Below the pieces are notes generated by a model. It saw only the letters and a program-made list of their open reading frames with translations, searched no databases and was not told the DNA's origin. Below are positions 1,946 through 12,258 of a DNA stretch of 64,000 bases, in pieces; positions within the stretch are counted from its first letter, which is position 1, and each line of letters begins with the position of its first letter. Origin of the DNA: Oscillospiraceae bacterium (GTDB lineage: Bacteria > Bacillota > Clostridia > Oscillospirales > Oscillospiraceae); NCBI GenBank assembly GCA_017395935.1, contig JAFQNL010000034.1, forward strand, positions 1 to 64,000, given 5' to 3'. The position numbers and the translations under genes were made by a program.

Positions 1946-3634
1946 ATGAAATTTTCCCAGATGCCTTATGCGCGGCCTGATCTGGCTGCCTTTCGCAGCC
2001 TGACCGAGAAGACTGTAGCCCGACTGAAGGAGGCCGGGAGTGCTCATGAGCAGATTGAGGCCTACCGAGCTTATGAAAAGGCCAGCAACACCATTGAGAC
2101 TATGGCCGCCATTATCACCATCCGCCATACCATTGATGCCAAGGACTCCTTCTACGCCGGCGAGCAGGACTGGCTGGATGAGTCCATGCCTCAGATTGAA
2201 GAGCTGAGTCAGCTGGTCAATCAGGCGCTGTTGGACTCTCCCTTCCGCGCCGAGCTGGCTGCGGAACTGGGAGAGGTGCTGTTCACCAATCTGGAGATCG
2301 CGGTGCGGGGATTTAAGCCTGAGCTCATGGAGCTGATGATGGAGGAGAACAAGCTGGTATCCGAGTACCAGAAGCTCTCTGCCTCTGCCACCGTGGAGTT
2401 CGACGGAAAGATCCTTCCCCTGACCAAGCTGGGCCCCTATAAGCAGAGCACCGACCGGGCTGTGCGCAAGGCTGCCTTTGTGGCTGAGGGCGAGTGCTAT
2501 GACCTGCATCGGGAGAAACTGGACGAGATCTTCGATAAGCTGGTCAAGAATCGTCACGCTCAGGGCAGACTGATGGGCTATGACAATTATCTCCCTCTGG
2601 CCTATGACCGGCTGGGCCGGAATTGCTACGGACCGGAAAAGGTAGCCGCCTTCCGTGCGCAGATCGCTCAGGATCTGGTTCCCATTGTAGCCAGAGTCAA
2701 GGAAGATCAGCGCCGCCGGCTGGGAGTGGATCACCTCTATTTCTATGACGATGGCCTGCTCTTTCCTGACGGCAACGCCGACCCTCAGGGCAGCGCCGAT
2801 GACATTCTCAGGGCCGGTCTGGAAATGTACCACAGTTTGAGCCCTGAGACGGCCGAGTTCATTGACTTCCTCTATGAAAATGAACTTTTGGACGTGCTGA
2901 GCAAGGAAGGTAAGGCTCCTGGCGGATACTGTATCTCCATTCCCGACTACGAGGCCCCCTTCATCTTCTCCAATTTCAACGGCACCTCCGGCGACGTGGA
3001 TGTGCTTACTCATGAGGCCGGTCACGCCTTTGCCGACTTCCGGGCAGCACGGAAGGGTTATATCCGGGCCCTTCAGAATCCCACTATTGAGGCCTGCGAA
3101 TGCCACTCCATGTCCATGGAGTTCCTGACTCAGGACTACCACAAGCTCTTCTTTGGTGACCTGACCCGGAAGTATGAGATCGGACATTGTGAAGACTCGC
3201 TGATCTTTGTCCCCTATGGTTGCATGGTCGATGAGTTCCAGCATCTGATCTACGAAAATCCGGAAATGACTCCCGAAGAGCGCAACCAGTGCTGGCTGGA
3301 GCTGGAAAAGAAGTACCGTCCCTGGATGGACTTCGAGGATCTGCCCTGCTTCAGCAGAGGCGGCGGCTGGCAGCGTCAGCAGCATATCTATATGAATCCC
3401 TTCTACTATATCGACTATGTTCTGGCACAGACGGTGGCCTTCCAGTTCTGGATTGTCTCCATGTCTGACCGGGAGGATGCCTGGAAGCGGTATCTGGCCT
3501 TCGTAGACAAGGGCGGCACCTGCACATTTGAGGATCTGGTCCGCAGCGCCGGCCTTCAGATCCCCTATGAGCCCGGCTGTGTCCGCCGGATCGGAGCTGC
3601 TATCGGCCGGTGGATTGAGGAAAATCCCCTCTGA
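1946..3634 (+). CDS. pepF: M3 family oligoendopeptidase (PepF-like)
   Basis: 562-residue zinc metallopeptidase. The zinc motif HEAGH (residues 356-360, in DVLTHEAGHAFADF) is preceded by the M3 substrate strand ISIPDYEAPFIFSNFNGTSG, and the third ligand region IEACECHSMSMEFLTQ follows. PepF-type enzymes are cytoplasmic and cut peptides of roughly 7-17 residues; no signal peptide is seen. ATG at 1946 is preceded by AGGAG at 1931-1935 and is preferred over an in-frame ATG further upstream whose added residues do not resemble the family. Its position directly upstream of an oligopeptide importer suggests that it digests the imported peptides, although it has its own promoter and a 433-base gap separates it from the importer genes. 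Confidence 0.9.
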   Translation: MKFSQMPYARPDLAAFRSLTEKTVARLKEAGSAHEQIEAYRAYEKASNTIETMAAIITIRHTIDAKDSFYAGEQDWLDESMPQIEELSQLVNQALLDSPFRAELAAELGEVLFTNLEIAVRGFKPELMELMMEENKLVSEYQKLSASATVEFDGKILPLTKLGPYKQSTDRAVRKAAFVAEGECYDLHREKLDEIFDKLVKNRHAQGRLMGYDNYLPLAYDRLGRNCYGPEKVAAFRAQIAQDLVPIVARVKEDQRRRLGVDHLYFYDDGLLFPDGNADPQGSADDILRAGLEMYHSLSPETAEFIDFLYENELLDVLSKEGKAPGGYCISIPDYEAPFIFSNFNGTSGDVDVLTHEAGHAFADFRAARKGYIRALQNPTIEACECHSMSMEFLTQDYHKLFFGDLTRKYEIGHCEDSLIFVPYGCMVDEFQHLIYENPEMTPEERNQCWLELEKKYRPWMDFEDLPCFSRGGGWQRQQHIYMNPFYYIDYVLAQTVAFQFWIVSMSDREDAWKRYLAFVDKGGTCTFEDLVRSAGLQIPYEPGCVRRIGAAIGRWIEENPL

Positions 3635-3835
3635 TCTCTGCAGGATAAATGGCGTGAGAATTTTACCCTCTGGTCGTATGGTATACAGGTTTATACATTT
3701 TGTGACCGAGTGTGCAAAGCTTGAAACAGTCCAATCTTTGACGAATTAAACAAATGGCGGATTAAAATAAAAAAAGCTTTCGTCAAAACGCACAATAGTG
3801 ACAAAGTGTTGCTCAATTGTAAACGTAGGAAAAAC

Positions 3836-3856
3836 AAATATTTTCCAGAAAAATTT
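3836..3856. promoter_or_regulatory. Possible CodY-like operator
   Basis: The inverted repeat ATTTTC-CA-GAAAAAT resembles the CodY box AATTTTCWGAAAATT but has one extra central base, which weakens the match. CodY commonly controls opp operons in Firmicutes; whether this organism has CodY is not known from the window. Confidence 0.25.
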
Positions 3857-3876
3857 GCCAAATTAAACTTTATTAG

Positions 3877-3905
3877 TTGAAAAATCTTCGGAGATATGTT
3901 AGGCT
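3877..3905 (+). promoter_or_regulatory. Candidate promoter of the opp operon
   Basis: TTGAAA at 3877-3882, 17-base spacer, TAGGCT at 3900-3905. The -10 is imperfect. The predicted transcript would begin just before the three tandem hairpins. Confidence 0.4.
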
Positions 3906-3920
3906 AAATAACAAATGTTT

Positions 3921-3992
3921 TTGCAGGAACGACTGCAAAGGACGGCTGGGCAAAACGCCATGGCGTTTTTTCATGGATCATTCTGATCCATG
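3921..3992 (+). promoter_or_regulatory. Three tandem hairpins in the opp leader
   Basis: TTGCAG/CTGCAA (3921-3926 with 3933-3938), the perfect palindrome AAAACGCCATGGCGTTTT (3952-3969) followed by two more T, and CATGGATCA/TGATCCATG (3972-3980 with 3984-3992, loop TTC). The second hairpin with its T-run looks like a weak terminator; together they could form an attenuator or mRNA-stabilising leader. Confidence 0.5.
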
Positions 3993-4067
3993 AATGGTCC
4001 TCGCCGCCAGTCAACGGTATTTTTTGGCGCTGCCATGAAATATAAAATTCAAATAGGAGGAAACACT

Positions 4068-6266
4068 ATGAAGAAGATCCTTGCTCTCCTGCTGGCTCTG
4101 GCAATGATGCTCTCTCTGGTCGCCTGCGGCGGTACTGATGCACCCGCTGAGGAGCCCGCTGAGGAGCCTGCTGCCACTGACGAGGAGACCCCCGCTGCTA
4201 GCGAAGCAGTCGAGTACGTCGATCCTTATGCCGATCTGGCTGAGGATTACACTGCCCAGTCCGAGGCTATCTATCATGATATCCTGGGCGAGTTCTATGA
4301 GGCCTATGAGGCTGCCAAGGCTGTTGAGAACGTCTCTGAGCGTTATGCTCTGATGGCTATCGCCGAGGCTAAGCTGATGGAATCCGCCGTCATGCTGCCC
4401 CTGACCTCCAACGGCGGCAACTATGCCATCTCCCGCGTTGTCCCCAACACCGCTACCTCCACCCTGTGGGGCAATGACTATGAGCGTTATCACAACGTTC
4501 TGGTCTGCACCGAGCCTCTGACCGCTGAGCACCGCGCCGAGCTGAAGGCTATGTGGGCTGAGCTGGCTGGCACCGGCACCTGGGTTGACTCCGCCAAGGC
4601 TTATGTCGAGGAGAAGGGCTACACCCTGAAGGACAGCTACACCTTCGGTTACTCCAGCGACCCCCTGACCTGGGACGTTCTGAACACCTCCCGCTCCGCT
4701 GACTCCGAGGCCATCATCAACACCTATGACGGCCTGCTGGAATACGATTCCGAGAACATTCTGCAGCCCGCTCTGGCTGAGAGCTATGAAGTTTCCCCCG
4801 ACGGCCTGACCTACACCTTCAAGATCCGTGAAGGCGCTGTCTGGACCGACTCTCAGGGCCGTAAGGTCGCTGACGTCGTCGCTGACGACTTCGTGGCCGG
4901 CATGCAGCACATGATGGACGCTCAGGGCGGTCTGGAATATCTGGTCCAGGGCATCATCGTCAATGCTACCGAGTACATCACCGGCGAGATCACCGACTTC
5001 TCTCAGGTCGGCGTCAAGGCTATTGATGACTACACCCTCGAGTACACCCTCTGCCAGCCCACCTCTTACTTCGTTACCATGCTGGGCTACGGCTGCTTCG
5101 CTCCCATGAGCAGAACCTACTACACCCAGTGCGGCGGCCAGTTCGGCGCTGACTTTGACAGCACCGCTGAAGGCTACACCTACGGCACCTCCCCCGACAC
5201 CATCGCTTACTGCGGCCCCTACACCGTCAGCAACTTCACCGCTGAGAACACCATCGTGTTCAAGGCCAACCCCTCTTACTGGAACGCTGACAACATCACC
5301 ATGAAGAGCCTGACCTGGCTGTACAACGACGGCGAGGACGCTACCAAGGCTTACAACGACACCATGTCCGGCGTGCTGGACGGCGCTGGCCTGAACGCTT
5401 CCGCTGTTGAGGCTGCCAAGTCCGACGGCGTGTTCGACACCTATGCTTATGTCGCCGCTACCGACGCCACCTCCTTCATGGCTTTCTACAACCTGAACCG
5501 TCTGGCTTTCTCCAACTTCAACGACGGCTCTGTTGCTTCTACCAAGACTCCCGAGGCTGCTGTCCGCGACACCGGCGCTCTGCGTAACGAGCACTTCCGT
5601 CGCGCTCTGTCCTTCGCTACCGACCGTGGCGCTTACAATGCCCAGACCGTCGGCGAAGAGCTGAAGTACACCTCCATGAGAAACTCCTACACCCCCGGCA
5701 CCTTCGTCTATCTGACTGAGGACGTCACCGTTGCCATCAACGGCACCGACACCACCTTCGAAGCCGGCACCTACTACGGCGAGATCATGCAGGCCCAGAT
5801 CGATGCTGACGGCGTCGAGATGATGGTTTGGGATCCCACCGCTGACGACGGCATCGGCTCCTCCGACGGTTTCGACGGCTGGTACAACCCCGAGGCTGCT
5901 CAGGCTGAGCTGGCTCTGGCTGTTGAGGAACTGGCTGCCATCGGCATCGAAGTTTCCGCTGAGAACCCCATCTACATCGACCTGCCCTACTTCTCCGGCT
6001 CCGAAGCTTACGGTAACCGCGCTAACGCCTACAAGCAGTCTCTCGAGACCGTTCTGGGCGGCGCTGTCATCGTCAACCTGGTTGAGTGCGTCGACTCTGC
6101 TGCCTGGTACTATGCTGGTTACTACACCACCTATGGCTACGAAGGCAACTACGATATGTACGACGTCTCTGGCTGGGGCCCTGACTACGGCGATCCCGCA
6201 ACTTATCTGGACACCTTCCTGCCCGACTACGCTGGCTACATGGTCAAGTGCATCGGCCTGTTCTAA
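4068..6266 (+). CDS. oppA: Oligopeptide ABC transporter substrate-binding lipoprotein, apparently circularly permuted (AmiA/OppA family)
   Basis: 732-residue lipoprotein: signal peptide with lipobox LVAC (Cys20), acidic Pro/Glu linker to residue 49. Residues 189-732 match the AmiA/OppA family in order from its normal N-terminus (SYTFGYSSDPLTWDVL, YDGLLEYDSENILQPALAES, SPDGLTYTFKIREGAVW) to SGWGPDYGDPATYLDTFL, and the protein ends soon after. The segment normally found after that point is instead at residues 50-163: ERYALMAIAEAKLMESAVML, SRVVPNT and LTAEHRAELKAMW resemble the C-terminal end of AmiA. The protein therefore looks like a circular permutation of the usual fold. ATG at 4068 has GGAGG seven bases upstream. 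It captures peptides outside the membrane for the permeases encoded downstream. Confidence 0.88.
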   Translation: MKKILALLLALAMMLSLVACGGTDAPAEEPAEEPAATDEETPAASEAVEYVDPYADLAEDYTAQSEAIYHDILGEFYEAYEAAKAVENVSERYALMAIAEAKLMESAVMLPLTSNGGNYAISRVVPNTATSTLWGNDYERYHNVLVCTEPLTAEHRAELKAMWAELAGTGTWVDSAKAYVEEKGYTLKDSYTFGYSSDPLTWDVLNTSRSADSEAIINTYDGLLEYDSENILQPALAESYEVSPDGLTYTFKIREGAVWTDSQGRKVADVVADDFVAGMQHMMDAQGGLEYLVQGIIVNATEYITGEITDFSQVGVKAIDDYTLEYTLCQPTSYFVTMLGYGCFAPMSRTYYTQCGGQFGADFDSTAEGYTYGTSPDTIAYCGPYTVSNFTAENTIVFKANPSYWNADNITMKSLTWLYNDGEDATKAYNDTMSGVLDGAGLNASAVEAAKSDGVFDTYAYVAATDATSFMAFYNLNRLAFSNFNDGSVASTKTPEAAVRDTGALRNEHFRRALSFATDRGAYNAQTVGEELKYTSMRNSYTPGTFVYLTEDVTVAINGTDTTFEAGTYYGEIMQAQIDADGVEMMVWDPTADDGIGSSDGFDGWYNPEAAQAELALAVEELAAIGIEVSAENPIYIDLPYFSGSEAYGNRANAYKQSLETVLGGAVIVNLVECVDSAAWYYAGYYTTYGYEGNYDMYDVSGWGPDYGDPATYLDTFLPDYAGYMVKCIGLF

Positions 6267-6293
6267 GGTCCATTAAGTTCATGTAAAACCCTT

Positions 6294-6323
6294 GGGAGGA
6301 TGGACTTTTTAGTCCATCCTCCC
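6294..6323 (+). terminator. Perfect stem-loop after oppA
   Basis: GGGAGGATGGACT (6294-6306) pairs without mismatch with AGTCCATCCTCCC (6311-6323) around a TTTT loop. There is no T-run afterwards, so it is better explained as a 3'-stabilising or partial-termination hairpin that keeps oppA mRNA more abundant than the downstream message. Confidence 0.6.
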
Positions 6324-6368
6324 GTCCGTACAAGTATGGCAGGCGCTGAAGAGACGGTGCAGGAAATG

Positions 6369-6467
6369 CTGCCCCCAGTATTTCGGCACAAACGGCCTTG
6401 AAATTGTTTTATATAAATTTAACGGTTTAAAGTGAAATGTCTTTTAATTCCGAAATGCTGTGGGCAG
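6369..6467 (+). repeat. Long-range inverted repeat in the oppA-oppB spacer
   Basis: Bases 6369-6386 (CTGCCCCCAGTATTTCGG) and 6450-6467 (CCGAAATGCTGTGGGCAG) are complementary at 16 of 18 positions, enclosing a 63-base A+T-rich loop. Function unknown. Confidence 0.55.
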
Positions 6468-6579
6468 TATTCTCTGCTGCCCTGCAGCAGCCCAGTTCCA
6501 ATTTTTCAGTGCCCTATCAACCGGAAGCAGCAGCCCCAAGGGCTGCGTTCATCGAAATCAAACGAGATGAGAGATTGAT

Positions 6580-8163
6580 ATGACGAAATATTTAGTAAAC
6601 AGAGTGCTGCGTGGTTTGGTCTCTGTGGTTATCGTTGTCGGTATCGTCATGGTGATGATCTATTCCTGTCTGGACAGAAACCTGATCTTCGCTGCCGACC
6701 CCAACTACAGCCATGTGAAGGCCAATGCCAAGGAAGTCTACATGATGCAGCAGTGGGAGAAATATGGTTATCTTGACTATGTGACCTACGCTGACTTCCT
6801 GATCCAGCTCAAGCGCGACGGTGAGATCGACCAGGAAACCTACGATCAGGCCGTCAAGATGGGCAACAAGGTTACCGGTGAGAACGATGTCGCTGCAGAG
6901 TACATCGCTCGCTTTACCGAGGAGTACGAGGCTAACGGCTATACCGTGGAGACGCTGGAAGCCAAGATGAAGGGTAAGACCAAAAAGTATCAGGACGGTG
7001 GTCAGCCCTACCTCTTCGCTTACAAGGATATTCCTCTGCCTGGCCGTCTGGTCAACTATATCACCGGCCTCATTACTGTGGACAATATCCACTATGTGCC
7101 CCCCGAGGAGGACATCGGTGAGCGCGGAATTACCTTCACCACTCACGACCCTGCCTACGGAGGAGAGAAGTTCTCGCCTGCCATTATGGGCAACGGTACC
7201 TATCATAAGTACCTCTTCTACTGCAACGATCAGTTCCCCTTTATCCATCAGAATCTGGTTAACATCAATCTGGGTACCTCTTACAGTATCCGCCGTGATA
7301 TCGACGTGTTCCAGATTATGACCGATACTCAGGGCTCCTATTCCTACTCTATCGTCACCTATCCCACCGGTCGTGTGGCAGAGAGCGCCGATGATCTCCA
7401 CTCCGCCACCTATTCCTTGGGATCTCTGTCCAGCGGCACCGACATCCTCCGTGCCAACTTCGTAGACGACTATACCAACGTCAACACCAACAAGAGCGGC
7501 CTGTCCAAGATGGGTTACTCCTTTACCATTGGTATTATCTCTGTTATCATGGCTTACCTTCTGGCCATTCCTCTGGGCACCCTGATGGCGCTGAAGAAGG
7601 ACAAGTTCATTGACAAGCTGGGTACCATCTACATCGTCTTCATTATTGCCGTTCCCTCTCTGGCTTATATCTTCCTGTTTAAGGCCATCGGCGGCAACTT
7701 CGGCCTGCCCACCACCTTCGATATGGAGAATCCCACCTGGCTCATGTATGTGCTGCCCATCATCTCTCTGGCACTGCCCTCCATTGCCAACCTGATGAAG
7801 TGGCTGCGCCGGTATATGATCGACCAGATGAACTCTGACTATGTCAAGTTCGCTCGCTCTGGCGGTCTGTCCGAGGGTGAGATCTTCTCCAAGCACATTC
7901 TGAAGAATGCCATCATTCCCATCGTCCACGGCATTCCTTCCAGCGTGCTCTTCGCTATGACCGGCGCCATCATCACTGAGCGTGTCTACGTTGTCCCCGG
8001 TGCCGGTAACCTGCTGACCCGAGCCATCAACGCCTATGATAACGGCGTCATCGTCGGCATGACCCTCTTCTATGCCCTGCTGACTGTGACCTCTGTCATC
8101 CTTGGCGACGTGCTCATGTCCGTGATGGATCCCAGAATTTCCTTCACATCCAAATCGAGGTGA
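6580..8163 (+). CDS. oppB: Oligopeptide ABC transporter permease (OppB/AmiC-like)
   Basis: 527-residue membrane protein. The first transmembrane helix (about residues 9-30) is followed by a large extracytoplasmic region to about residue 310, then a cluster of helices from YSFTIGIISVIMAYLLAIPL to the C-terminus. The EAA-type loop that contacts the ATPase is visible near residues 420-440 (YVKFARSGGLSEGEIFSKH). Ordinary OppB is near 310-340 residues; the long external domain resembles streptococcal AmiC. The start ATG has only a weak purine stretch upstream. Its stop overlaps the next gene's ribosome-binding region. Together with OppC it forms the peptide-conducting channel. Confidence 0.88.
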   Translation: MTKYLVNRVLRGLVSVVIVVGIVMVMIYSCLDRNLIFAADPNYSHVKANAKEVYMMQQWEKYGYLDYVTYADFLIQLKRDGEIDQETYDQAVKMGNKVTGENDVAAEYIARFTEEYEANGYTVETLEAKMKGKTKKYQDGGQPYLFAYKDIPLPGRLVNYITGLITVDNIHYVPPEEDIGERGITFTTHDPAYGGEKFSPAIMGNGTYHKYLFYCNDQFPFIHQNLVNINLGTSYSIRRDIDVFQIMTDTQGSYSYSIVTYPTGRVAESADDLHSATYSLGSLSSGTDILRANFVDDYTNVNTNKSGLSKMGYSFTIGIISVIMAYLLAIPLGTLMALKKDKFIDKLGTIYIVFIIAVPSLAYIFLFKAIGGNFGLPTTFDMENPTWLMYVLPIISLALPSIANLMKWLRRYMIDQMNSDYVKFARSGGLSEGEIFSKHILKNAIIPIVHGIPSSVLFAMTGAIITERVYVVPGAGNLLTRAINAYDNGVIVGMTLFYALLTVTSVILGDVLMSVMDPRISFTSKSR

Positions 8164-9172: not shown

Positions 9173-10921
9173 ATGGAAGAGAAAAAAGTCTTATTGTCTG
9201 TCAAAGACCTGAATGTCAAGTTCCGTGTTCGTGGTCGGATCTTGACGGCTATCCGGGGCGTCTCGCTTGACTTCTATGAGAACGAGTCGGTAGCCATCGT
9301 CGGTGAGTCCGGTTCCGGTAAGAGCGTCTTTACCAAGACCTTTGCCGGTATGCTGGAGACCAACGGCTTTATTGACGAAGGCTCTATCATCTTCAACGAT
9401 GAGGAGCTCTCGGATACTAAGGTGACCCTGCGTGAAGCGGATAAGAAGCTTTTGGCTATGGCCACCGCCAAGCTCAACGAATATTCCAAGCTGGAATTCG
9501 GCAGCGAGACCTACAAAGCCATGCTCCAGCTGGAGAGCGAAAAGAAGGCCAAGTTCTTCCTCAGCGAGGAAGAGGAGAAGGCCCTGAACGGCGAGATCAG
9601 CGAGCTGACCTATAAGCGGACTGAGCTGTTTAATCTGAAGCAGACGGTGGACGGCTCCAAGGAGCGTGAGCGCCTGAGAGAGATGGACGCCGAGCTGAAG
9701 AAGATGGACGCCGAGATCAAGGCTCTGGAGAAGAAGAAGGCCGACACCATCGCTGAGCATAAGAAGAAGGCTGAGCAGGATTCCCAGTATAAGGAATACT
9801 TCAACTCCAGAATGACTCAGCTCAAGAGCGACTACAATCGCCGGATTCAGGCTGAGATTTCTCCGGAGACCCGGAAGAGAAACGAGATCCTTGCCAAGGA
9901 GATCTATCTCTCGATCGGACGCTATGACACCCGTACCCGTAAGAAGCTGCTCAAGCAGCTGCTGGAGTGTATGAAGAAGGCTATGCAGATGGGCGTGGAT
10001 CTGGACAGCGACGAAATCCGGAACACCATCTTCGACGAGGTCGCCTTCCGTGTTCGCTATCTGGACGAAGAGGGCGATACTCTCCACGGCCACTGCATCC
10101 TGAACCTGGCCAAGGTCAACTATTCTAAGGACTGGACCAAGATCCGCGGCGGCAAGATTGCCACCGTCTTCCAGGACCCCATGACCTCCCTGAACCCCAT
10201 CATTACCATCGGCAAGCAGATTACCTCCGTCATTCTCAAGCATCAGGACTGCTCTGAGCTGGAAGCCCGGCTCCGTGCCCTTGAGCTGATGAAGAAGGTG
10301 GGCATTCCCAACGCTGAGGCCCGGTTTGATGACTATCCCTTCCAGTATTCCGGCGGCATGAGACAGCGTATTGTTATCGCTATCGCTCTGTCCTGCCAGC
10401 CCAAGATTCTGATCTGCGACGAGCCCACTACCGCTCTTGACGTCACCATTCAGGCCCAGATCCTCAAGCTGATCAAGGATCTGCAGAAGGAGTTCAAGTA
10501 CACCATCGTCTTTATCACCCATGACCTTGGTGTGGTCGCCAATATTGCCGACCGCGTGGCTGTTATGTACGCCGGCCAGATCATTGAGCTGGGCACGGTA
10601 GAAGAGGTCTTCTATGATCCCCGCCATCCCTACACCTGGGCTCTGCTGTCCTCCCTGCCCCAGCTGGCGCAGAGAAACACCAAGCTCTACTCCATCACCG
10701 GCACTCCTCCCTCCCTGTATAACAAGATCGTGGGCGACGCCTTTGCTCCCCGTAATCCCTACTGCCTGAAGGTGGACACCCTGAAGGAACCCCCCATGTT
10801 CCAGATCTCCGAGACCCACTTTGCCAAGACCTGGCTGTGTGATCCCAGAGCTCCCAAGGTGGAGAAGCCCGAGGCCATTCAGGGTATCCACGAAAAGCTG
10901 CTGAAAGCATTCAATATTTAG
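9173..10921 (+). CDS. oppD: Oligopeptide ABC transporter ATP-binding protein with a large coiled-coil insertion (OppD)
   Basis: 582-residue ATPase. Walker A GESGSGKS is near residues 44-51, the Q-loop [12 protein letters not shown] near 330, signature YSGGMRQR near 391, Walker [13 protein letters not shown] near 412-423, the switch histidine in FITHD near 445, and the C-terminal peptide-transporter extension [15 protein letters not shown] follows. In ordinary OppD (about 330-360 residues) Walker A and Q-loop are some 50 residues apart; here about 230 extra residues, roughly 81-318, rich in Lys and Glu with heptad character ([20 protein letters not shown]), are inserted in the helical/antiparallel-beta region. 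All catalytic motifs remain, so it should hydrolyse ATP as one half of the OppD-OppF pair. Confidence 0.9.
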
Positions 10922-10932
10922 GAGGTCAGGTC

Positions 10933-12258
10933 GTGACAATGGATAAGAACAAGATGGGCGCAGCCCAATCTTCGCAGTTGCCGGAACATGGTCCTCTGGA
11001 TGCAAATGGCAGAGAGATCCTTCTGTCCCTGAAGAACGTGGACATCACCTTCGGCAAGGGTGAAGACGCTGTCAAGGCGGTTAAGAATGCCAGCTTTGAC
11101 ATCTATAAGGGAGAGACCTTCTCTCTGGTCGGTGAGTCCGGCTCCGGCAAGACTACCATCGGCCGCGCCGTTATCCGGGTCAACCCCTGTGCGGCAGGCG
11201 AGATCCAGTATAAGGGCGTCCGTATCTCCGGCAAGACCTCCAAGGCTCTTGACCGTGAGGTTATCCGCAATATCCAGATGGTCTTCCAGGACCCTGCCGC
11301 CTCTCTGAACGAGCGCGCTACCGTTGACTATATTGTCTCCGAGGGTCTGTACAACTTCCACCTGTATGAAAATGAGCAGGACCGTGTCCAGAAGGTGGAA
11401 AAGATCATCGAGCAGGTGGGTCTGCTTCCTGAGCATCTGACCCGCTACCCCCATGAGTTCTCCGGCGGTCAGCGCCAGAGAATCGGCCTGGCCCGTGCCA
11501 TGGTCATGGACCCTGAGCTGGTCATCGCTGACGAGCCCATCTCCGCTCTGGACGTCTCCATCCGTGCCCAGGTGCTCAATCTGATGAAGAAGTTCCAGGA
11601 GGAGAAAGGCATTACCTACCTCTTTATCGCCCATGACCTGTCCATTGTTCGGTTCATCTCCGACCGGATCGGCGTTATCTATAAGGGCGATATCGTTGAG
11701 GTCGCCGATGCCGAAGAGCTCTTCGACTTCCCCCTGCATCCCTATACCCGCTCTCTGATCTCGGCCATTCCCATTCCTGACCCCGCGTTGGAGAAGAACA
11801 AGGTGCTCTTCACCTATGACCCCTCCGTCCATGACTACAGCGTGGATAAGCCTGAGCTGGTGGATATCGGTCATAACCACTTTGTCTTCGGTAATCAGCA
11901 GGAAATCGAGGAGTACAAGGCCATCCGTGATAAGGGCGAGCCTCTGAAGTCTATCACCATTCTGGACCCCGACGATCCTCTTGCCGAGGAAAAGATGGCC
12001 CAGCAGCAGAAGGAATATGAGAAGGCCCACGAGGAGCAGTTCACCATGAATACGCCCCTCCATGATACCGGTAGCATCTGGTATACCATTATCTCCTTCA
12101 TTCTGCCCATTCTGGGTATTATCGCCGGTCTGGTCTTCAAACACTTTAAGCACTTTAACAACTTTAAGGCCTGTAAGAAGGGCGCCATTGCCGGTATCGT
12201 TGTGCTGCTGGTGATCATTCTCTTCTTTGCGGCGATGCTTGGCCTTGCGTTGGTATAA
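10933..12258 (+). CDS. oppF: Oligopeptide ABC transporter ATP-binding protein with C-terminal membrane helices (OppF)
   Basis: 441-residue ATPase: Walker [10 protein letters not shown] near residue 67, Q-loop [11 protein letters not shown], signature [15 protein letters not shown] near 177, Walker [13 protein letters not shown], switch histidine FIAHD. After the usual OppF end a charged helix ([17 protein letters not shown]) leads to two hydrophobic segments at about residues 384-405 and 419-440, separated by a basic stretch ([14 protein letters not shown]); such a tail is not part of the family. GTG at 10933 is seven bases from GGAGG at 10921-10925; ATG at 10939 is the alternative. The tail may tether the ATPase to the membrane. 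Confidence 0.88.

Follow-up and report, generated by a model that had tools for sequence, protein, structure and literature searches.

A lipoprotein of the AmiA oligopeptide-binding family, probably circularly permuted once, encoded ahead of oppBCDF in an Oscillospiraceae genome

The window, by which we mean the whole stretch of 64,000 nucleotides analysed here from an Oscillospiraceae bacterium (contig JAFQNL010000034.1), carries at positions 4068–6266 of the forward strand an intact open reading frame of 732 residues, with a lipobox at residue 20, which heads an operon with the two permeases and two ATPases of an Opp-type ABC importer (Table 1). A re-reading of the translation agreed with the first-pass annotation on the reading frame, its coordinates and the quoted motifs, and the moved segment which that annotation placed at residues 50–163 is indeed found behind the lipobox, with bounds that are better set at about 61–163. 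Similarly, the chain does stop soon after the ...YLDTFL motif, 14 residues on rather than about 16.

Table 1. Features of the binding-protein gene and its operon, with positions in the window
Feature	Position	Strand	Basis or remark
M3-family peptidase gene	1946–3634	+	just upstream of opp operon
Signal peptide and lipobox (LVAC), residues 1–20	4068–4127	+	translation
Acidic low-complexity tether, residues 21–60	4128–4247	+	low pLDDT, low conservation
Permuted segment, residues 61–163	4248–4556	+	homology to AmiA/AliB C-terminal end, pLDDT
New junction, residues 164–188	4557–4631	+	conservation, predicted secondary structure
Body, residues 189–732	4632–6263	+	phmmer, Pfam, profile–profile, Foldseek
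W703–D706 (WGPD), counterpart of AmiA W504/D507	6174–6185	+	alignment
New C-terminus, residues 722–732 (AGYMVKCIGLF)	6231–6263	+	conserved alignment column, residue counting
13-pair hairpin	6294–6323	+	between binding-protein gene and oppB; z −4.16 versus shuffles
oppB, permease with large extracellular part, 527 aa	6580–8163	+	PF00528 at 329–521
oppC, permease, 332 aa	8160–9158	+	PF00528, OppC_N
oppD, ATPase with ~214-aa insertion at residues ~84–297	9173–10921	+	profile searches
oppF, ATPase	10933–12258	+	PF00005, oligo_HPY

Within the protein, SBP_bac_5 is the one Pfam family above cut-off (residues 232–719, 156.7 bits against a curated cut-off of 32.4), and nothing exceeds the cut-off in residues 1–188. 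The body comprises the start of domain I, domain II, domain I again and domain III as far as the cut, while the junction bridges the former C- and N-termini and has a predicted helix (172–182) following a GTGT turn. Mean residue conservation is 0.66 in the body, 0.65 in the junction and 0.60 in the segment, against 0.34 in residues 1–58 (signal and tether). W703, P705 and D706 are invariant in all 80 aligned permuted proteins, and K727 is kept in 70 of the 80.

Once identical rows had been removed, the relatives collected comprised 32 ordinary proteins and 101 permuted ones. Our own pattern detects a lipobox-like cysteine in 88 of the 101 distinct permuted proteins, and two cannot be judged; the remaining 11 (L038, L039, L043, L044, L049, L054, L055, L069, L093, L104 and L108) have a signal peptide that lacks the lipobox cysteine, and in several of them the mature chain would begin almost at the segment. 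At the other extreme, a permuted protein at L092:3819-7034 has a T/E/A/P repeat tether of about 370 residues between lipobox and segment, and another, at L118:928-3135, has a signal peptide with SRRDFMK before its cysteine, which we take to be a twin-arginine-like motif. Median tether lengths are 44 residues in permuted and 24.5 in ordinary proteins; we rejected longer tethers as evidence, given the wide overlap and a p of 0.03 obtained on related sequences with relatedness ignored.

As regards the operon, of the 76 permuted loci with at least 1.5 kb of downstream sequence, 75 have an oppB gene inside that distance (the exception being L045), and oppC, oppD and oppF stand behind it in most loci that reach far enough; an M3-type peptidase gene directly upstream recurs in 9 of 80 loci. 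The operon, together with the invariant W703 and D706, fits a putative role of the protein as the oligopeptide receptor of an Opp importer. The large extracellular part of OppB recalls AmiC, whose extracellular domains have been proposed, on an AlphaFold model, to clamp the receptor (available text of PMC11192437). A long OppB is also encoded beside the ordinary relatives L170 and L173, and is consequently independent of the permutation. The perfect hairpin in front of oppB may perhaps be an mRNA-stabilizing or processing element; a promoter and terminator scan of positions 3600–6700 gave nothing exceeding chance and did not score the hairpin as a terminator. Another feature of the operon is the OppD insertion (9422–10063), about 214 residues of which 41% are K, R, D or E, lying between Walker A and the Q-loop. 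Of the permuted loci, 66 have a complete OppD; a 60-bit rule detects the insertion in 65 of these, L172 giving a weak match, and in none of 18 ordinary operons; among the matches listed, only those of genomes G000 and G084 span it.

The order of the parts emerges from homology searches. With the whole protein as phmmer query against PDB sequences, AliB, AmiA, AliC and AliD rank top (E 9.2e-78 to 5.8e-72), and in each of the three alignments shown (AliB, AmiA and AliC) the match falls into two stretches whose order is swapped; for AliB, query residues 186–726 align with chain positions 4–497 and query residues 77–164 with chain positions 519–607. The segment alone, as a single sequence, finds the same four Ami/Ali chains first among 177,635 distinct PDB sequences (E 6e-4 to 0.012), the fifth match being unrelated (E 0.66), and a segment profile built from 25 permuted proteins retrieves AliC, AliD, AmiA and AliB from the same set at E 3.5e-10 to 1.8e-8. 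All of these profile matches are C-terminal, at chain positions 502–622 of 626–638. The first-pass annotation had proposed that segment and body be aligned separately to the family. When this is done against a profile of 24 ordinary relatives, the segment profile falls on columns 490–587 of 607 (probability 98.5, E 2.9e-15) and the whole permuted profile covers columns 5–478 of 607, stopping where the chain stops. Residues 61–163 are, as judged by these alignments, the counterpart of the end of domain III, the last domain I piece and the start of helix alpha19; the parts that end an ordinary chain are present but are placed N-terminally. The ordinary linear order of AmiA-type parts is absent from the window protein, which we consequently file as a permuted SBP_bac_5/AmiA-type variant.

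Controls gave the same picture. On the 32 ordinary proteins the segment profile, built from permuted ones, scores 14.4–47.7 bits (median 32.5), against a maximum of 7.2 bits on shuffled copies (3,200 made, 1,868 scored), −0.4 bits or less on reversed copies and 1.7 bits or less on the same 32 proteins deprived of their C-terminal part. Since these 32 were those among 55 non-permuted rows that already showed a C-terminal segment match, it is the PDB searches that constitute the unselected tests; of the other 23 rows three are cut by contig ends and the remainder are mostly more distant SBP_bac_5 proteins. The proposal of the first-pass annotation, a circular permutation that sets the former C-terminal segment beside the membrane anchor, is consequently upheld by the swapped phmmer stretches, the profile matches and the controls, and it also withstood the two objections that the annotation had raised against itself. 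First, residues 50–163 show no better alignment with an unrelated domain, having no Pfam match and, at E≤1 in the profile search of the 177,635 PDB sequences, no match beyond the four Ami/Ali C-termini. Second, residues 620–732 do not by themselves complete the C-terminal lobe: the profile ends at ordinary column 478, and from the tryptophan of GWGPDY to the chain end there are 28–32 residues in permuted proteins (100 of 101 measured) against 133–181 in ordinary ones (31 of 32 measured). We also looked for the missing C-terminus in another frame or past the stop and rejected this, as in positions 6267–6579 there is the hairpin, and none of the frames carries the family further.

Predicted structures bear on how the two parts fit together. 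AlphaFold2, a program that may recall the family fold, run on the full chain with 80 permuted sequences, predicts a single folded unit with high confidence (mean pLDDT 92.6, pTM 0.88), with blocks 61–190 at pLDDT 91–98 and values below 50 at residues 19–39 only. The lone segment (111 residues) reaches pLDDT 71.3 and pTM 0.42, on an alignment that is shallower (27 rows against 80); it shows no strand of three or more residues, whereas strands 109–113 and 119–122 are present in the full chain. With that shallower alignment kept in mind, the comparison suggests that the segment depends on the body to fold. One could formally suppose that the C-terminus has merely been lost and that the segment in front is a domain of unrelated or independent kind, as the lack of any Pfam domain called in the segment might suggest, yet the segment is homologous to the C-terminus of the AmiA family, which contradicts this idea, and is folded confidently in the full chain and not alone; we regard such an origin as most improbable.

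Foldseek places AliC, AmiA, AliB and AliD first (E 2.5e-38 to 5.5e-38), with TM-scores by target length of 0.39, 0.71, 0.74 and 0.69, respectively, in alignments that keep sequence order (545–561 columns to the Ami/Ali chains) and by which the segment is not placed. The best 50 of 204 matches are peptide-, nickel-, heme- or other binding proteins of what we take to be the cluster-C-type classes, and the type I/cluster B sugar-binding fold does not appear among them. For the two-lobed fold, with segment and body packed as in AmiA, the analysis covers the confident model and Foldseek matches in sequence order. The model suggests that the segment packs on the body of its own chain. A different arrangement, in which the N-terminal segment completes the lobe of a neighbour and the working unit is an intertwined dimer, has a precedent in AliC, crystallised as a domain-swapped dimer (available text of PMC11192437), and sequence alone cannot separate intrachain from interchain packing. 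Against such an oligomer stand the junction of about 25 residues, which is conserved and predicted to form a compact helix-turn-helix, and the modelling of a single chain at pTM 0.88, and we consider it distinctly unlikely.

The permuted order is far from confined to the window. A scan of the genome collection with two short peptide patterns gave 170 stretches, of which 126 are relatives; in all 80 loci kept (the best 80 of the 126) the segment precedes the body, and in 79 of them it does so in a single reading frame, L064 being interrupted by a run of N. The titles of the permuted loci name Lachnospiraceae, Oscillospiraceae and Erysipelotrichaceae among others, mostly as metagenome bins, and five loci come from RefSeq records titled with named strains: Roseburia hominis An869 (L041), Fusicatenibacter saccharivorans (L053), Butyrivibrio hungatei DSM 14810 (L071), Butyrivibrio sp. 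INlla18 (L075) and Acutalibacter sp. 1XD8-33 (L098). Matches occur in 2 of 32 genomes of a genus sample; in an order sample 29 of 394 genomes match at E≤1e-50 (24 permuted, 4 ordinary, 1 cut off), in a phylum sample 14 of 398 (permuted proteins in 2, one of which, G084, has an ordinary one as well; ordinary proteins alone in 11; 1 cut off) and in a class sample, for which an ordinary protein was the query, 11 of 291 (3 permuted, 8 ordinary). The permuted form is widespread in many gut Clostridia; a search for relatives in viral contigs found none. In the source genome the window protein is one of two SBP_bac_5 matches, and one other genome (G084) holds both kinds, a permuted and an ordinary AmiA-type protein (L126 and L140). 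The source genome is fragmented, in 46 contigs, and one might consequently suspect an assembly or sequencing artefact; this is contradicted by the spread of the same order over 101 distinct proteins, 94 of them ending at one alignment column, from metagenome-assembled genomes and from the five named-strain records alike, and we find it scarcely credible.

That common stopping point falls within a loop whose length varies, after the WGPDY...YLDT region and before the helix preceding ERYxLxAxAEA. Among 65 non-redundant permuted proteins 60 share the final column and five differ, and the residue in it is F, Y or W in 58 of the 65. In a quick, unrooted maximum-likelihood tree from body columns only, one branch (SH-aLRT 99) parts 62 permuted from 24 ordinary proteins, the nearest ordinary neighbours of the permuted clade being L005, L114, L127 and L139, of which L114 is a long branch. 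We regard the permuted order as the derived one, since the ordinary order is that of the known structures of AmiA/OppA type. Tandem duplication, the usual route to circular permutation, may have been the one taken; a segment at both the N- and the C-terminus was seen in none of 166 rows. The rearrangement looks like one old, working invention.

Taken together, we propose that the window gene very probably encodes a lipid-anchored AmiA-type oligopeptide-binding protein that was circularly permuted once, along the following lines. The ancestral order would have been anchor, domain I, domain II, domain I, domain III, last domain I piece and helix alpha19. The old C-terminus would have been joined to the old N-terminus through the new junction of about 25 residues, and the chain opened in the variable-length loop of domain III, about 26 residues past the aspartate to which the peptide's amino end is bound, so that the segment of about 100 residues behind the cut now comes first, right after the tether. 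The segment would pack back on the body and so restore the two lobes usual in this fold, and the protein, a putative peptide binder, would catch peptides outside the cell and pass them to the OppBCDF importer encoded directly behind.

What the cut may have changed can be judged from the pneumococcal proteins. In AliD, domain I consists of residues 29–63, 191–296 and 583–617, domain II of 64–190 and domain III of 297–582, with alpha19 at 622–652 (available text of PMC11192437), which fits the first-pass statement that the N- and C-terminus contribute to the same lobe, here that of domain I. In AmiA, W504 and D507 grip the bound peptide at its amino end, and regions R1 (523–530) and R2 (532–538) form pocket P2 for its second residue (PMC11192437, same text). 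The phmmer alignment equates D507 with D706; by gapless residue counting from D507, rather than by coordinates, residues 722–729 correspond to R1, with a helix predicted at 725–729, and the chain end at 732 to about AmiA 533, inside R2. The tethered old C-terminal part would thus start from domain III (lobe 2), and the lipid tether would leave from lobe 2 instead of lobe 1 (domain I), through which ordinary relatives are tethered. This shift of the anchor and the wide spread of the permuted form go beyond what the first-pass annotation had noticed.

As to why the permuted form persists, it may be real but neutral, with an ordinary AmiA fold, docking and specificity, and carried along with the operon by descent. 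This concerns the reason only and is compatible with the single permutation proposed above. The one origin on the tree, the operon order shared with the ordinary L170 and L173, the unchanged ligand residues and the tether lengths overlapping those of ordinary proteins all agree with it. Set against it are the conservation of the chain end to the residue (in the same 60 of 65), at the place where AmiA forms pocket P2, and the independent permutation of a second tethered binding-protein class, whose members come chiefly from treponemes and from Gram-positive bacteria, often of the gut (available text of PMC4990184). We judge the chances of neutrality to be evenly balanced. A bolder reading, compatible with the data, is that the permutation was selected: the anchor would have moved to lobe 2, the chain would have opened at the wall of P2, the last F, Y or W and the free carboxylate near K727 would join the binding site, and the parallel with TpMglB-2, the second class just mentioned, would be convergence. 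We put this forward tentatively and hold it to be possible, if rather doubtful; were it true, similar bacteria would have permuted a tethered binding protein twice independently, the other case being the TpMglB-2-type proteins, and the conserved chain end leads to a direct prediction on peptide specificity.

Whatever its cause, the permutation alters the layout of a transport receptor that many gut Clostridia carry, and in annotation such proteins look like an SBP_bac_5 domain that lacks its C-terminus and is preceded by an orphan N-terminal stretch. With operons so much alike, the two kinds of receptor, ordinary and permuted, form a matched set on which to ask if the place of the anchor affects docking and release. 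Natural circular permutations are rare, and in the open-access literature we found none for the SBP_bac_5/OppA family, although a subscription paper or preprint could exist. As far as that literature shows, permutation in the OppA family is new, and permutation of a tethered binding protein is already known from TpMglB-2.

Finally, considering known systems, the best matches in sequence and fold are AmiA, AliB, AliC and AliD of Streptococcus pneumoniae (PDB 8a42, 8qlj, 8qlh and 8qlc, respectively), which have in common with the window protein the W and D for the amino end of the peptide, a counterpart of alpha19 and a partner permease with a large extracellular part. They differ in their ordinary order, whereas in the window protein the C-terminal 100 or so residues come first, the chain ends in domain III, and alpha19 is replaced by the predicted helices 153–166 and 172–182 running into the old N-terminus. 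The nearest ordinary group on the tree is made up of AmiA-type proteins of Bacillota such as L005, L114, L127 and L139, again of ordinary order, and L170 and L173 share operon order and the large OppB with the window, whereas the OppD of ordinary relatives, where there was one to be seen, lacks the insertion. The Opp system of Mycoplasma (NCBIfam MMSYN1_0165 to 0169) offers a further comparison: the window OppD matches MMSYN1_0167 over the full length, the insertion being part of the match (730 bits, slightly short of the cut-off of 740; insertion alone E 1.3e-6), and the segment matches positions 784–880 of 896 in the OppA model MMSYN1_0169, that is its C-terminus, in the ordinary order, if weakly (E 0.002). 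The insertion need not, therefore, accompany the permutation; we argue against a functional link between the two, which coincide on one branch. The closest parallel for the rearrangement itself is TpMglB-2 (Tp0684) of Treponema pallidum, of 'Type Ic' or 'Cluster Bc', likewise an ABC binding protein that is tethered and naturally circularly permuted, with relatives in the bacteria named above; in contrast to the window protein it is a type I/cluster B glucose-binding protein whose first strands were moved to the end, of unrelated origin and with an unrelated break, and its authors suggest that the permutation may have to do with anchoring (PMC4990184, available text).
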